Shown piece by piece: positions 47,675 to 52,322 of a stretch of 64,000 bases of DNA. Both the position numbers and the translations under genes were made by a program. A model generated the notes under the pieces. It was not told the origin of the DNA. It did no database searches and was given only the letters and a program-made list of their open reading frames with translations. The stretch comes from Candidatus Marithrix sp. Canyon 246 (GTDB lineage Bacteria > Pseudomonadota > Gammaproteobacteria > Beggiatoales > Beggiatoaceae): assembly GCF_001723685.1 (NCBI RefSeq), contig NZ_MCBX01000012.1:1-64000 (forward strand). The letters run 5' to 3'. How positions within the stretch are numbered: the first letter of the stretch is position 1; the number at the start of each line of letters is the position of its first letter.

Positions 47675-47707
47675 AAACCTGACAGGTTTTTAAAACCTGT
47701 CAGGTTT
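47675..47707. repeat. 33-base nested palindrome, copy 3
   Basis: Identical to the elements at 5741 and 6042. It fills the gap between the convergent dsbA and CHAT genes, a fitting place for a two-way terminator. Confidence 0.9.
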
Positions 47708-47711
47708 AATC

Positions 47712-49163
47712 TTATATCCAATTACCAATCAACACCAAAGGTGCCCAATAAATTGGGTGATGATATATTGTATCAATGACTATTTTTTGAGCCGCTTGTA
47801 AAGCTTGTGCTTTTGATTGGTTGTTAAAATAGTTTTGATAAAATATATTTATTAGATGATAAGTCGTTAAATCATGAGCTTTCCATAGTGTCGCTAATGA
47901 GCTTATAGCTCCCGCCTTTATCGCAATTCCTGATAATCCTAAAGCTGCCCATTCTTGATCACCTTTTGCGGTATTACAAGCACTTAATGTTAATAAGTCA
48001 ATTGTTTGTTTGAATTTTATCATTGAATCTAATTCATTTAGCTTGATTTTACCGTTTTGAGTAATGATAAAACTGGCTTTTGCTTCTGATGCAAATTCTG
48101 CATGGCTGGTTATATGAACAATATTATAATTATCTTTATTTAAATAGCTTTTGAAATTTGCCGCTGTAAATTTTTCATCTAATAATTGACTAGTTTCTCC
48201 AAGTTTGCTAATTAGTTTAATTTCATTTTTTGCATAATGTAATTTGGCATAGCCTTGTGTAGCTTTAGTGATAGCGGCAACTAATATCTTTTTCTTCTGT
48301 TTATTAGTTTTAGCTATGGTTAAATTTAGACTAGGCGTAATTGCTAGCGCGTATTTTTCAATTAAAAATTGTTTACCATCATGTAATGCTGCCATTGATA
48401 ATGTGCCTAATATACCTTCAGGCACAAATACTAATGTCTTAATATTATTTAGGGTGATTGGGCGAATTAGCCAATTATATAGACGCTGTGCAGTTTTTAA
48501 ATAACTAGTATCTTCTAAATCACTACGCCCTTTTTGTATGGCTTTATTAAATGCTGTGACTGTATTATAAATTTGCTGATGCCCAACATTTACTGTAATA
48601 CGTTTCAAATCTTGATGCGGCAAACTTATTATTAATTCTAGCCGCTTTTCTAAAACGATAGGATAAATCACAGCAGTATGCCTATCTGCGATTTTGTCAA
48701 TCGACTTAGTTTTTAATAAAACACAATCTCCAAAATAACTTTTTAAATCTGCGGTTTTTAATTGTTCAACTACATCTCTAGCCTCAGCGATTGAGTTTTG
48801 TTGTAACAATAAATCAGCTAATTCAAAATATATAGGGCGTATTTTTTGATAAATATTAGATTTGGTTTTACAAAAATAATTCAAACCATCTAAGGCTTGT
48901 TGATAAGCGGCAATTGCTGGAACTATTTTATTTTGTGCTTTAAAAATTCGCCCCAATTGCCATTGCCATCGAATTAACCAAGCTGGATGATAAGCTTCTT
49001 GCGCTTTAAAAATGGCTCGGCGCGTCAACACCAAGGCTTCATCATAACGCTGCTGTTGTTCATATTTTTCTGCTAAAAAACCATAATATTTATGATCATT
49101 AGCAGTTACAATAGTGCTAATACTAATACTTAACACCAAAATTATAATTTGAAAAAACGGCAT
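47712..49163 (-). CDS. Exported TPR-CHAT domain protease-like protein
   Basis: A protein of 483 residues from the ATG at 49163 (the frame is open to 49184, inside its neighbour). A signal-like helix (MPFFQIIILVLSISISTIVTA) is followed by TPR-like repeats (YEQQQRYDEALVLTRRAIFK, AIAAYQQALDGLNYF) and a C-terminal CHAT domain. CHAT is a caspase-fold peptidase: catalytic H354 in VHITSHAEF and C396 in LTLSACNTA are present, with GLSGIAIKAGA downstream. It is the last gene of a caspase/sigma/membrane-protein/CHAT run. Substrate unknown. The signal peptide puts it in the periplasm, unlike craspases and other cytoplasmic CHAT enzymes. Confidence 0.85.
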   Translation of the reverse strand: MPFFQIIILVLSISISTIVTANDHKYYGFLAEKYEQQQRYDEALVLTRRAIFKAQEAYHPAWLIRWQWQLGRIFKAQNKIVPAIAAYQQALDGLNYFCKTKSNIYQKIRPIYFELADLLLQQNSIAEARDVVEQLKTADLKSYFGDCVLLKTKSIDKIADRHTAVIYPIVLEKRLELIISLPHQDLKRITVNVGHQQIYNTVTAFNKAIQKGRSDLEDTSYLKTAQRLYNWLIRPITLNNIKTLVFVPEGILGTLSMAALHDGKQFLIEKYALAITPSLNLTIAKTNKQKKKILVAAITKATQGYAKLHYAKNEIKLISKLGETSQLLDEKFTAANFKSYLNKDNYNIVHITSHAEFASEAKASFIITQNGKIKLNELDSMIKFKQTIDLLTLSACNTAKGDQEWAALGLSGIAIKAGAISSLATLWKAHDLTTYHLINIFYQNYFNNQSKAQALQAAQKIVIDTIYHHPIYWAPLVLIGNWI

Positions 49164-49164
49164 C

Positions 49165-49752
49165 TTATTCTGGTAATTTAACAATTATACGTACTGATCT
49201 ATTTTCAGCATCAATACCAATACGATCACATAAATCACGTAGCTTATCAGATGCTGATGTTGGCATTTCGATATCTAATTGATATGATTTTTGTTTGTTC
49301 GTTAATTTGACATCTGCACCAGCGGCAATAAATTCTTGTTTCAATTGTTCTGCTGTTTGTTTAGCAGTTGGAGATATTTTTACAATAGCTTCTGTAGAAT
49401 TAAGTGGCTGTATTTTGGGTGCAGATTTTGGTAACATCAAATCATTATTCTTTGGATTAGGTATCATTTTAACAACAATCAATCCAACAAAAGAAACAAC
49501 TACAACTAAAGGCACTAAAACTGGTGTCATTGTATTCGATGCCCACCAAAGACGCAATTTTTCTATGAAAGTTTCTTTAGGTTCTGTTTTAGTTTCAGCA
49601 GCAATTCTTGACATTAGTTTTTGTAATTGTTCTTCAGCATGAAACGCATCTCGCAAAGCTTGAGCTTCAGCTACGGTATCAGGGTTAGCATCTTCTGGCA
49701 CATTTTTACCAGCAATTGTATCTAACCAAATTTTATCATCATTATTTAACAT
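49165..49752 (-). CDS. Single-pass membrane protein, probable anti-sigma factor
   Basis: A 195-residue protein with one central membrane helix (76-95, PVLVPLVVVVSFVGLIVVKM). The N-terminal ~70 residues are acidic and cytoplasmic (DDKIWLDTIAGKNVPED, AEAQALRDAFHAEEQL). The C-terminal ~95 residues would be periplasmic and look like a compact alpha/beta domain (KQTAEQLKQEFIAAGADVKL and SVRIIVKLPE). It lies directly after the sigma factor, 27 bases away; that place plus the topology suggest an anti-sigma factor or signal relay. No anti-sigma domain is recognisable by motif. Confidence 0.6.
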   Translation of the reverse strand: MLNNDDKIWLDTIAGKNVPEDANPDTVAEAQALRDAFHAEEQLQKLMSRIAAETKTEPKETFIEKLRLWWASNTMTPVLVPLVVVVSFVGLIVVKMIPNPKNNDLMLPKSAPKIQPLNSTEAIVKISPTAKQTAEQLKQEFIAAGADVKLTNKQKSYQLDIEMPTSASDKLRDLCDRIGIDAENRSVRIIVKLPE

Positions 49753-49779
49753 AATTTTTTTCCTATTAATTATTATTTA

Positions 49780-50355
49780 TTAATTTTTATTACAATCCTC
49801 CCAACATTCTTTAAAAGAAGAAATCTGTTTGAAGGTTTTCCGACAATTCGAGAAAAAGCTTGTGGTAGCAGATAATGATCGATTAATTTTTTGAGATGTT
49901 TCTTTTATAGAATGCCCTTTGTAAAAAAACATCAGGCTATCATAGCAATTTTTATACAATGGATTTGTATTATAAGCTATGTTTGTTCTTATACAATATT
50001 GATAACAATCATCTTTTTCTAATTTTTCCATTTCTAAAAAAAATATATCAATTTCATTTTTGGCTAGTGGATTCTTGATCATAAATTTTTCCTTTCTCAA
50101 TCTTTTGCTGGTTTCTTGAATAGCCAATGTACCTAACCAAGTCAAGACACTACATTGTTCTTTAAAACCTTTAATTGTATGATGAAATTGAAAGAACGTA
50201 TCATTACAGATTTCATCTGCTGATGCTTCAGAAATCGGCTTCTTTTTTATAGATAAGATCGCCTTTCTAACTCGGCTATAATATTTTCTATGCAGAAATT
50301 CTAAGCCTTTCGGATTATTTTTACGCATTAATTCTAATGCTTCTTTGTCATTCAT
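49780..50355 (-). CDS. ECF-type sigma-70 family factor, cysteine-rich
   Basis: A 191-residue sigma factor from the ATG at 50355, which has AGGAAG (50363-50368) at ideal spacing; the longer frame to 50412 runs into the caspase gene. Region 2 is at about 10-80 (GLEFLHRKYYSRVRKAILS, DEICNDTFFQF, LTWLGTLAIQET) and a region 4-like helix pair is near 140-175 (GHSIKETSQKINRSLSAT). It has eight cysteines, most in the C-terminal third (DDCYQYC, NCYDS, NCRK, ECWEDC), unusual for the family. It would direct RNA polymerase to its own operon or to stress genes. Confidence 0.75.
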   Translation of the reverse strand: MNDKEALELMRKNNPKGLEFLHRKYYSRVRKAILSIKKKPISEASADEICNDTFFQFHHTIKGFKEQCSVLTWLGTLAIQETSKRLRKEKFMIKNPLAKNEIDIFFLEMEKLEKDDCYQYCIRTNIAYNTNPLYKNCYDSLMFFYKGHSIKETSQKINRSLSATTSFFSNCRKTFKQISSFKECWEDCNKN

Positions 50356-50362
50356 AGTTACA

Positions 50363-50368
50363 CTTCCT
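50363..50368 (-). promoter_or_regulatory. Ribosome binding site fixing the sigma-factor start
   Basis: AGGAAG on the minus strand, 7 bases before the ATG at 50355. It favours this start over the upstream one at 50412, which would overlap the caspase gene by 41 bases. The site lies just before the caspase stop, so the two genes are close to coupled. Confidence 0.6.
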
Positions 50369-50371
50369 ATT

Positions 50372-51208
50372 TCATTCAGAATACCATCTTTGTGGCTCTT
50401 GTTGAATATCACAGTTACTAGATTCTAACTTAATTTCATTAGCAGTGATTTCAAATATACCTTCAAGTGTTTTATTAGGATAAGCTTTAATATTTTTTAA
50501 AAAATAAACAGTAAAAAAACCACCCTGAGCAATTTCCCAAGCGGTTTGAGATTCCTTAGCAGCGGCATATAATACACCCTTAATTCTATTCTTTAACGGC
50601 TTAACTTCACAAGTTTTCTTGGGTAATAAGGAATTTATATAATCCATCAACCAAAATTTAGATTTGGCATTCTGACACATTTTATCGCCTCTAAACATAC
50701 CACCAGAAAAGCAAGTATCTATAACACTAATTATATTATTGGTATTAATTTGATTAACCCAATAGACAAATAAATCATCACTAATAGCTTGATACCTTTT
50801 ACCTGTAAAATCAAATGGAATCAAAGCTTCATCGACACAATTTTGTTCATCATTAGTACTATCAGGATATTGAGTGCCATGCCCAGAAAAATAAATAAAT
50901 ACCTGATCCTTTGAATCAACTATTTTAGCTAAACCTTTCAAAGAAGATTCAAATTCCCAAGATGTGACATTTTTAATCAAACATACATTAGAATTTGGTA
51001 TCTTAAAGCGTTGCTGAATGACATTGAGAAAATTTTCAGCGTCATGATTTGTGTTTTTCAAATCACCTGTATTGGCACCCATTGCTAAAATAAACTTAGC
51101 AGGTGTAGAAGAATTATATTTGAGATTGTTCCAACATGAAACAGCTGGAGAAGAAAGGAAGTGGGATATGAATATAAAAAAAACTAATCTAATCATTTTT
51201 TTTCGCAC
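50372..51208 (-). CDS. Exported caspase family (C14) peptidase
   Basis: A 278-residue metacaspase-type protease. A signal peptide (MRKKMIRLVFFIFISHFLSSPAVS) is followed directly by the peptidase domain. Catalytic H110 is in IYFSGHGTQ and C166 in VIDTCFSGG; a ~20-residue loop with DEALIPFDF is typical of prokaryotic metacaspases. No pro-domain or partner domain is attached. It is the first gene of a four-gene run with a sigma factor, a membrane protein and a CHAT protease, so both caspase-fold proteases would be exported. Such enzymes are abundant in filamentous sulfur bacteria, but their roles are unknown. Confidence 0.87.
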   Translation of the reverse strand: MRKKMIRLVFFIFISHFLSSPAVSCWNNLKYNSSTPAKFILAMGANTGDLKNTNHDAENFLNVIQQRFKIPNSNVCLIKNVTSWEFESSLKGLAKIVDSKDQVFIYFSGHGTQYPDSTNDEQNCVDEALIPFDFTGKRYQAISDDLFVYWVNQINTNNIISVIDTCFSGGMFRGDKMCQNAKSKFWLMDYINSLLPKKTCEVKPLKNRIKGVLYAAAKESQTAWEIAQGGFFTVYFLKNIKAYPNKTLEGIFEITANEIKLESSNCDIQQEPQRWYSE

Positions 51209-51266
51209 CTATTTAAATGCTTTAGTATAAAGCAAATAAATAGATGTGAAAATAAGAATAATTAAA

Positions 51267-52322
51267 TTACCAATGAACTTCAGCAGTCAACATAAATTGT
51301 GTTTCATCTTTAATACCTGCATTAAGTGAATCTGATTCATCATAATCAGTCTGTCTTACGTTAGCAATAAATCTAACTTGTTTATATAAATTATATACAG
51401 CACCAAGCAAATAATGTTTTCTATCGCCACCGCCATTTGATGCAACTGCTTGATCCCAATCATCATATCTACCAATAAACCAGAATTTATCCATTGGGCG
51501 ATATTCAAAATTCAAAGAATATCCATCACCTTCATAGACATCATTATTTCCATTATCAGCTTTTATATATTGCCCTGCAATTAAGAATTGCTTAGTGTTA
51601 TATACAGCATGTAAACCATTCAGAGTAAAATCATTATTTCCACGCTTATTATCTTCAAGACTTTTAATACCAAAATATGAAAAATTAATATAATCATTGC
51701 TTGGTTTTCTGCCTTTACTACTATCATATACATGATATGTTAAACGCGCTTCAGTAGATAAACCCTCACCATTTTCAATAGCATGGTATCCTTCACCGTT
51801 ATAAACACCAATTTCACTAGAAAAATGAGCTAATTTAGTCTTAAAATTCACACCTAAATCGGCTGAATTTATAAGATGCGCACCATATCCAGACTCTACA
51901 AAAACTTTAGAAATAGAACGAAACCACCAACCATGATGTTCTTCATAGTCAATCCAAGGGCGATGAACTTGACCCATTTCCACACCAGTATAAGGTAATA
52001 CTTCATCTAAATACAGATAAGCATATTTGACACGAGTCAACCAACTACCCTTATCTTTGTTTGAGCCTTTAGTTTCTTGAAAACTATCCAAAGTCAAACG
52101 CATATAATCTTTTTTGTTAAAATAGGCTTTGACTTGAAAATAATTACGTCTGGTTTCAAAATTACTTTCTCTATCACCACCATCTTCTTTTGAAGATGTA
52201 AAACCTAAATAATGCACACCATTAAATTTTAATTCACTTATCGCTGAAGCATTAGTTGCAACTATAATTAGACATAATGCAAGAGCTTTTAAGGTTTTCT
52301 TTTGCATATTACAAACACTCAT
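51267..52322 (-). CDS. Outer-membrane beta-barrel porin
   Basis: A 351-residue outer-membrane protein. A signal peptide (MQKKTLKALALCLIIVATNASA) follows the alternative Met at 52307. The rest is built of alternating amphipathic strands separated by charged turns (NFSYFGIKS, FLIAGQYIKAD, FWFIGRYDDWD), and the chain ends in an aromatic residue (FMLTAEVHW), the signature for barrel assembly. It resembles the phosphate-selective porin O/P type. Substrate unknown. The start is either 52322 or 52307. Confidence 0.8.
   Translation of the reverse strand: MSVCNMQKKTLKALALCLIIVATNASAISELKFNGVHYLGFTSSKEDGGDRESNFETRRNYFQVKAYFNKKDYMRLTLDSFQETKGSNKDKGSWLTRVKYAYLYLDEVLPYTGVEMGQVHRPWIDYEEHHGWWFRSISKVFVESGYGAHLINSADLGVNFKTKLAHFSSEIGVYNGEGYHAIENGEGLSTEARLTYHVYDSSKGRKPSNDYINFSYFGIKSLEDNKRGNNDFTLNGLHAVYNTKQFLIAGQYIKADNGNNDVYEGDGYSLNFEYRPMDKFWFIGRYDDWDQAVASNGGGDRKHYLLGAVYNLYKQVRFIANVRQTDYDESDSLNAGIKDETQFMLTAEVHW

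Follow-up and report, generated by a model that had tools for sequence, protein, structure and literature searches.

The question raised by the locus described here is why two exported proteases of the caspase fold should be encoded together with a sigma factor. It consists of four co-directional genes on the minus strand of a 64,000-nucleotide stretch of the genome of Candidatus Marithrix sp. Canyon 246 (the window), at positions 47712-51208; operon coordinates given below refer to this strand. In order, the genes encode an exported caspase, a sigma factor of the extracytoplasmic function (ECF) type, a single-pass membrane protein and an exported TPR-CHAT protease; re-reading of the open reading frames (ORFs) gives intergenic gaps of 16, 27 and 1 bases. 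A preliminary description had reported this layout and these gaps, and both are confirmed by the ORF coordinates together with Pfam matches for the caspase, sigma and CHAT proteins. The operon is real and conserved, while the mechanism proposed for it is a supported hypothesis and not a result: with a probability of about 0.58, the operon is an outside-in proteolytic switch that releases the sigma factor by means of the exported caspase and/or CHAT proteases.

Conservation was assessed in 42 genomes of the window's family, the giant sulfur bacteria, by reading gene maps around matches to the membrane protein and, independently, to the caspase. Strong caspase loci number 28 (E up to 1.8e-44); weaker matches, mostly to longer and apparently other caspase proteins, are outside this count. 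In 20 of the 28, the sigma gene comes next on the same strand and is followed by a relative of the membrane protein (some of these damaged), so that the caspase-sigma arrangement is not due to chance. This three-gene order recurs in nine genera of the family. The full four-gene order, with a same-strand CHAT gene and spacing of up to 693 bases, is found at eight loci (the window, L046, L050, L051, L052, L057, L058 and L143) from five genera. The four-gene set is a real unit, and the concern that its members might not be conserved together in relatives is answered by these two distributions. The membrane-protein profile finds relatives in 17 of the 42 genomes, and in 30 of 32 membrane-protein loci the gene immediately upstream is a sigma gene; L060, close to the end of a contig, and L144 are the exceptions. 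Three relatives came from a scan of named genomes and belong to metagenome-assembled genomes (MAGs) of Candidatus Marithrix, Candidatus Parabeggiatoa and Thioploca. In wider samples, in which rare or diverged members could be missed, a profile of the N-terminal domain matched 2 of 369 genomes of the class, both from the window's family, and 2 of 398 genomes of the phylum, namely the window's own and one at 1.8e-4. The last match was rejected, as its GC-rich locus matches no membrane-protein, sigma, caspase or CHAT profile.

The first gene (50372-51196) encodes an exported protease of the caspase/metacaspase type of 274 amino acids. It matches Peptidase_C14 (PF00656) at 2e-16 and carries the motifs SGHG (His) and DTCFSGG (Cys). 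The caspase domain, its His-Cys dyad and the DxC motif place it among the metacaspases (C14), and the profile of its family matches metacaspase-4 in the PDB at 4e-9. The catalytic pairs reported earlier, H110/C166 for the caspase and H354/C396 for the CHAT protein (from the CHAT ATG), are correct in their own numbering; the reported caspase start at GTG 51208 is probably not. A block of 47 nucleotides (51206-51252), identical between the window and the congeneric locus L046, ends in AGGTG, a probable ribosome site, and GTG 51208 falls inside this block. The most likely start is therefore ATG 51196, from which the dyad is counted as H106/C162. In the family alignment 27 of the 29 ORFs retain the catalytic His and 27 the Cys; neither residue is found in L140, and the other absences come from the L069 gene, which is split into two halves. 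By hydropathy and a simple pattern, the window caspase has a hydrophobic N-terminus with a weak lipobox (AVSC). The same pattern finds a lipobox in 13 of 20 operon caspases and 4 of 11 CHAT proteins, which would therefore be anchored at a membrane. The NCBIfam model caspase_w_EACC1 matches the window protein (P0004) at 1.8e-6 and 27.6 bits, far under its 140-bit cut-off. The window's genome (G000, 3.24 Mb) holds a large caspase-fold set, with 36 Peptidase_C14 matches, some of them fragments, and 8 CHAT matches.

The last gene (47712-49163) encodes an exported TPR-CHAT protease of 483 amino acids with a hydrophobic N-terminus, as judged by hydropathy. The match to PF12770 (5e-50, 171 bits, cut-off 24) is accompanied by TPRs and by the His-Cys dyad, and these features make it a CHAT protease. 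The dyad is present in 12 of 13 ORFs, the thirteenth being a 68-residue fragment.

The sigma gene (49780-50355) encodes 191 amino acids, 8 of them Cys, and both regions expected of an ECF factor are recognised. For region 2, the Pfam model Sigma70_r2 matches at 5e-5 (23.4 bits, slightly below its 24-bit cut-off), and the modelled region fits region 2 of E. coli sigma-E with a Z of 13.9 and a root-mean-square deviation (rmsd) of 1.4 over 91 aligned residues. For region 4, the family profile (24 rows) aligns AlgU and RpoE across both regions, with a best match of 2e-19; Pfam gives no region 4 match for the window sigma itself and one below cut-off in L072. A match to RpoE in PDB entry 9n9q, titled as an RNA-guided transcription complex, was taken as generic ECF similarity. 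Across the family the sigma ORFs (n = 28) carry 7.8 Cys on average, several at conserved places, and a metal or redox input is therefore possible. By eye, the sigma genes of L048, L051, L061, L066 and L072 appear to contain repeated sigma-4 segments, and the profile matches twice in L072.

The third gene (49165-49752) encodes a putative anti-sigma factor of 195 amino acids, recognised in relatives by its own family profiles and predicted by hydropathy to cross the membrane once. Its N-terminal, presumably cytoplasmic domain (49609-49752) was delimited in an alignment of 25 loci, all of which share the motif D-D-x-x-W-L-x-x-L-A-G-x-x-V-P-x-A-x-P-x-T-V-x-E-A-x-x-L-R. The transmembrane segment (residues 79-97, 49462-49518) has a hydropathy of 2.74 over 19 residues. 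It is followed by a juxtamembrane Pro-Lys-Ser (residues 108-110, 49423-49431), a candidate site-1 cleavage motif by the linker statistics given below, and by a predicted periplasmic domain of beta-alpha-beta-beta-alpha-beta topology (49168-49401), modelled by AlphaFold2 with a mean local confidence (pLDDT) of 88 and a global template-modelling score (pTM) of 0.70. A cytosolic N-terminus, one span, a periplasmic tail and a gene beside that of the sigma factor together make up the RseA-type layout, with the orientation of the span taken from hydropathy and position. The protein belongs to no family in Pfam or NCBIfam (best Pfam match E 0.09), and Pfam shows no DUF1822 in it at E up to 1. For its periplasmic fold, neither Foldseek (best E 0.02) nor VIA-align (best Z 6.4) gave a confident match. 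The latter value is for a glyoxalase/bleomycin-resistance half-domain (rmsd 2.4, 57 residues), and no function was drawn from a match at this confidence. The window protein belongs to a previously unannotated anti-sigma-like family. A decayed remnant of a second sigma/anti-sigma pair is present elsewhere in the same genome (L045:6992-7400, on G000:C7).

Two kinds of exceptional locus bear on the role of this protein. The membrane proteins of L064 and L072, which come from one genome, begin with a sigma-4-like domain joined on in frame; a complete sigma gene accompanies the fusion in L072, and in L064 only region 2 of sigma is left. In L144 (genome G059, L144:390-2363) there is no sigma gene, and a protein of 164 amino acids is followed by the membrane protein and then the caspase. 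The L144 membrane protein matches the family only from residue 13 on, and has the same periplasmic region and a Lys-Gly in its linker. Both arrangements are consistent with a component that connects a cytoplasmic regulator with the exterior, the nature of the L144 regulator being a guess. The 164-residue protein gave an impression of DNA binding that was set aside, Pfam returning nothing at E up to 0.5.

The form of the membrane protein's tail matches the location of its partner protease. With an exported caspase or CHAT protease (20 loci), the tail crosses the membrane once and continues through a variable linker into a small domain. Beside an exported M48-TPR peptidase (L059, L060 and L068), the same N-terminal domain and a span are joined to a different outer region. 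With CHAT-NB-ARC (L061) or CHAT-nSTAND (L063, L065 and L067) partners, which have no signal peptide, the tail is spanless and carries DUF1822; a single hydrophobic stretch, at residue 852, is seen in the partner from L063. Membrane-spanning forms accompany exported partners in 23 of 23 loci and soluble DUF1822 forms accompany cytosolic CHAT-STAND partners in 4 of 4, with export judged by simple hydropathy rather than a signal-peptide program (Fisher P 6e-5 by locus and 0.003 with one per genus and partner type, these and all P values being guides only). Four loci were set aside from the topology and linker counts: L062, where the contig ends after the anti-sigma gene, L072, truncated before the span, the remnant L045, and L073, a soluble form whose partner matches nSTAND1 but gives no CHAT match at E up to 0.5. 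L060, where two adjacent ORFs carry the motif, was counted once. The DUF1822 form is also matched by 10 records of cyanobacterial plasmids; in the four of these that were examined, DUF1822 adjoins CHAT or CHASE2 genes and no sigma factor is annotated.

The linker just outside the membrane is where a cut would be expected. Lys/Arg-Ser/Gly occurs in 17 of 20 linkers of the caspase/CHAT-linked forms, against 5.9 ± 1.9 when each linker is shuffled separately, and none of 5000 shuffles reaches 17; Pro-Lys/Arg-Ser/Gly occurs in 10 of 20, against 0.97 expected. With one representative per genus, chosen by hand, the counts are 8 of 9 and 6 of 9, respectively, and in the same nine proteins Lys/Arg-Ser/Gly is found within the first 30 residues in 2 and within the last 30 in 4. 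Among the M48-linked forms, with L062 counted here, one linker in four has it. The motif is kept in L048, which has no adjacent caspase, and in loci that lack CHAT. Metacaspases cut after Lys or Arg, often in a calcium-dependent manner, and Lys/Arg-Ser/Gly would thus be a natural site for a first cut.

From these observations we infer the following course of events. The N-terminal domain of the membrane protein would keep the sigma factor at the inner membrane, and the small folded domain of the same protein would lie in the periplasm. An envelope signal would activate the exported caspase, the exported CHAT protease or both, and one or both would cleave the anti-sigma factor within the short juxtamembrane linker on the outer side, the conserved Pro-Lys-Ser being the likeliest site. 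The remaining stump would be removed by a site-2 protease of the RseP type, freeing the sigma factor to act on its presumed target genes; an RseP homologue is encoded in the same genome (G000:C37, 2e-122). Outside-in release is favoured because sigma precedes the membrane protein in 30 of 32 loci, the caspase-led order holds in 20 of 28, the tail follows the partner and the linker motif is present in 17 of 20, and also because of the sigma-4-like fusions, the sigma-less L144, the RseP homologue and the precedent of Csx29-Csx30 discussed below.

A number of observations weigh against outside-in release. When the sigma factor and membrane protein were modelled as one chain joined through the stop codons (pLDDT 63, pTM 0.31), sigma region 2 and the outer domain were good, with low confidence at the junction and no resolved interface, and no known anti-sigma family in Pfam matches the membrane protein at E up to 1. 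Because the joined model gave no confident contact, the anti-sigma assignment rests on position, fusion and topology; the likely anti-sigma factor of the preliminary description gains support in these respects and not from the model. No ECF-type site is evident upstream of the operon, where the sole match is sigma-70-like. Eight of the 28 strong caspase loci (L140, L142 and L144-L149) lack the sigma order, including the second caspase of this clade in the window's own genome (L145) and that of its congener (L146), neither of which has an adjoining sigma gene. Of the 20 with the order, L066, L069 and L141 are without the anti-sigma-like N-terminal motif though sigma precedes, and L072 is truncated before the span. 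Several loci have no CHAT gene, and L048 has no adjacent caspase. Decay has affected the sigma gene (an in-frame stop in L047, the same locus as L083 in the Thioploca MAG, with intact copies in relatives; region 2 alone in L064), the caspase (split in L054 and L069) and the membrane protein (cut off before the span in L072), and the system is therefore not essential everywhere. The loci are related by descent, which could also preserve the linker motif; this motif was noticed before being tested, and 3 of the 20 linkers lack it.

Among alternative explanations, the one that survives best takes the proteases as effectors. The sigma and anti-sigma factors would control expression of the two proteases, which would act on other envelope or surface proteins such as two-partner-secretion (TPS) exoproteins and leave the anti-sigma factor uncut; activation would proceed in the style of DegS and RseP, or by a redox or metal cue with which the Cys-rich sigma factors (mean 7.8 Cys) are consistent. 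TPS-domain exoproteins lie near 7 of 21 loci (L047, L049, L050, L054, L057, L058 and L071) where 0.66 would be expected from genome densities, the densities having been entered by hand, the TPS profile derived from six of the seven loci that it went on to match, and L057 and L058 representing one genus. In L071 the exoprotein gene stands between those of the membrane protein and CHAT, and L049 has a convergent gene in which TPS and CHAT are fused. As TPS genes are enriched near these loci, surface exoproteins may be targets or members of the regulon. However, the window copy itself has no adjoining TPS gene, and the effector role leaves unexplained the match between tail and partner, the pairing of membrane protein and caspase without sigma in L144, and the linker motif. 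It is judged somewhat unlikely.

Alternatively, the membrane protein may not be an anti-sigma factor but act in the periplasm, inhibiting the proteases or docking with them, with the sigma factor regulated separately. The lack of a match to known anti-sigma families, the lack of a confident predicted interface with sigma, and the relative without sigma in L144 would all agree with this. It is made improbable by the cytoplasmic motif, which is conserved beside sigma even in spanless forms, and by the fusions of sigma-4-like domains to the membrane protein. A suicide or defence device in which the sigma unit merely tunes the dose of death-dealing proteases is very improbable: sister loci with CHAT-NB-ARC or CHAT-nSTAND partners do resemble published conflict systems, and the genome has its 36 Peptidase_C14 matches, but exported proteases would be badly placed to kill from inside and PADLOC gave just a generic caspase match (2e-8).

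The operon appears to be closed by a terminator-like hairpin of 15 pairs directly after the CHAT gene (47675-47707, running from 47707 to 47675). At its other end, the conserved block at 51206-51252 combines the probable ribosome site with a sigma-70-like promoter match, TTTTCA-17-TATACT (51252-51224), found in a promoter scan that by itself does not exceed chance (34 matches, against 28.6 ± 4.9 in shuffles). A motif for the operon's own sigma factor, which the preliminary description had suggested looking for upstream of 51208, was not found there, and with a sigma-70-like match and no evident ECF site, autoregulation by the ECF factor is not indicated. A gene for a Gram-negative porin lies immediately upstream on the same strand (51267-52322), and in L046 a gene with a similar start also sits upstream of the operon. 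Co-transcription of porin and operon is possible on account of this position and of the similar-start gene.

If outside-in release is extended to the sister loci, a modular relay may be envisaged, tentatively and at somewhat less than even odds: one sigma/anti-sigma chassis would carry an exchangeable tail that is the substrate of the adjoining protease, with caspase/CHAT and M48 versions outside the membrane, a CHAT-STAND version inside, and a sigma factor that is apparently replaceable. An exported metacaspase would then make the first cut of a bacterial transmembrane signalling cascade, of which we know of no earlier case. To our knowledge, the substrates of bacterial metacaspases and CHAT proteins are mostly unknown. 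Because the likely substrate, the likely cut site and a transcriptional readout share one operon, the function of a bacterial caspase becomes testable here with a reporter.

Several known systems resemble the operon in part. RseA and RsiW are also single-pass anti-sigma factors, first cut on the envelope side by DegS or PrsW, and an RseP homologue is present here as well; in contrast, the first cut is here proposed to be made by a caspase-fold enzyme, and Pfam finds no RseA-type domain in the window protein. In the CalpL-CalpT-CalpS system of type III CRISPR, a protease reportedly cuts an anti-sigma factor and frees the sigma factor, CalpL being described as a Lon-type, cytosolic enzyme activated by cyclic oligoadenylate. 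ECF54 factors, like the window's sigma factor, have CHAT proteins in their gene context, but are described as lacking an anti-sigma factor (PMC8999054). In the metacaspase/sigma-70 operons of Myxococcus and others (Asplund-Samuelsson et al. 2012, PMC3501461), a caspase homologue and a sigma factor share a predicted operon, as they do here, with no anti-sigma factor, CHAT protein or export described for them in the text available.

Together with these operons and ECF54, two EACC systems are nearest in gene content. In EACC1-caspase two-gene systems (Kaur et al. 2020, PMC7159879), the caspase gene adjoins one for a protein that crosses the membrane once and has a small domain on either side, much like the window's; however, the window caspase falls below the caspase_w_EACC1 cut-off, and the word 'sigma' has no occurrence in the text of that paper. 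EACC2-caspase/DUF1822 loci (Kaur et al. 2021, PMC8195603) likewise combine a caspase-fold protease with a neighbouring ECF sigma factor and an accessory protein, and the sister loci L061, L063, L065 and L067 carry DUF1822 behind the same N-terminal domain as the window protein. The latter differs in that a span and a periplasmic domain stand where those loci have DUF1822, and the proteases of the window are separate, exported proteins.

Nearest in mechanism is Craspase/CASP of type III-E CRISPR, in which the TPR-CHAT protease Csx29 cuts Csx30 and relieves inhibition of CASP-sigma (PMC10028731). That system likewise brings together an ECF sigma factor, the protein that inhibits it and a TPR-CHAT protease, and proteolysis of the inhibitor relieves sigma. 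The Craspase system is RNA-guided, whereas the window has two exported proteases, the second also of the caspase fold, and a putative inhibitor that is membrane-spanning; sequence searches of the PDB matched neither Csx29 nor Csx30. The earlier statement that no system with this combination had been described stands for the exported double-protease form, since, among the matches listed in full-text searches of open-licence papers, none was seen to describe exported caspase and CHAT proteases together with a membrane-bound anti-sigma factor, but it has to yield to the published metacaspase/sigma-70 operons, the EACC2/ECF/DUF1822 loci and Csx29-Csx30-sigma. New here are the tail that matches the location of its partner, the linker motif, the sigma-4-like fusion in two loci and the sigma-less locus. 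They suggest that the RNA-guided Csx29-Csx30-sigma relay may be one instance of a wider theme in which caspase-fold proteases are coupled to sigma factors.

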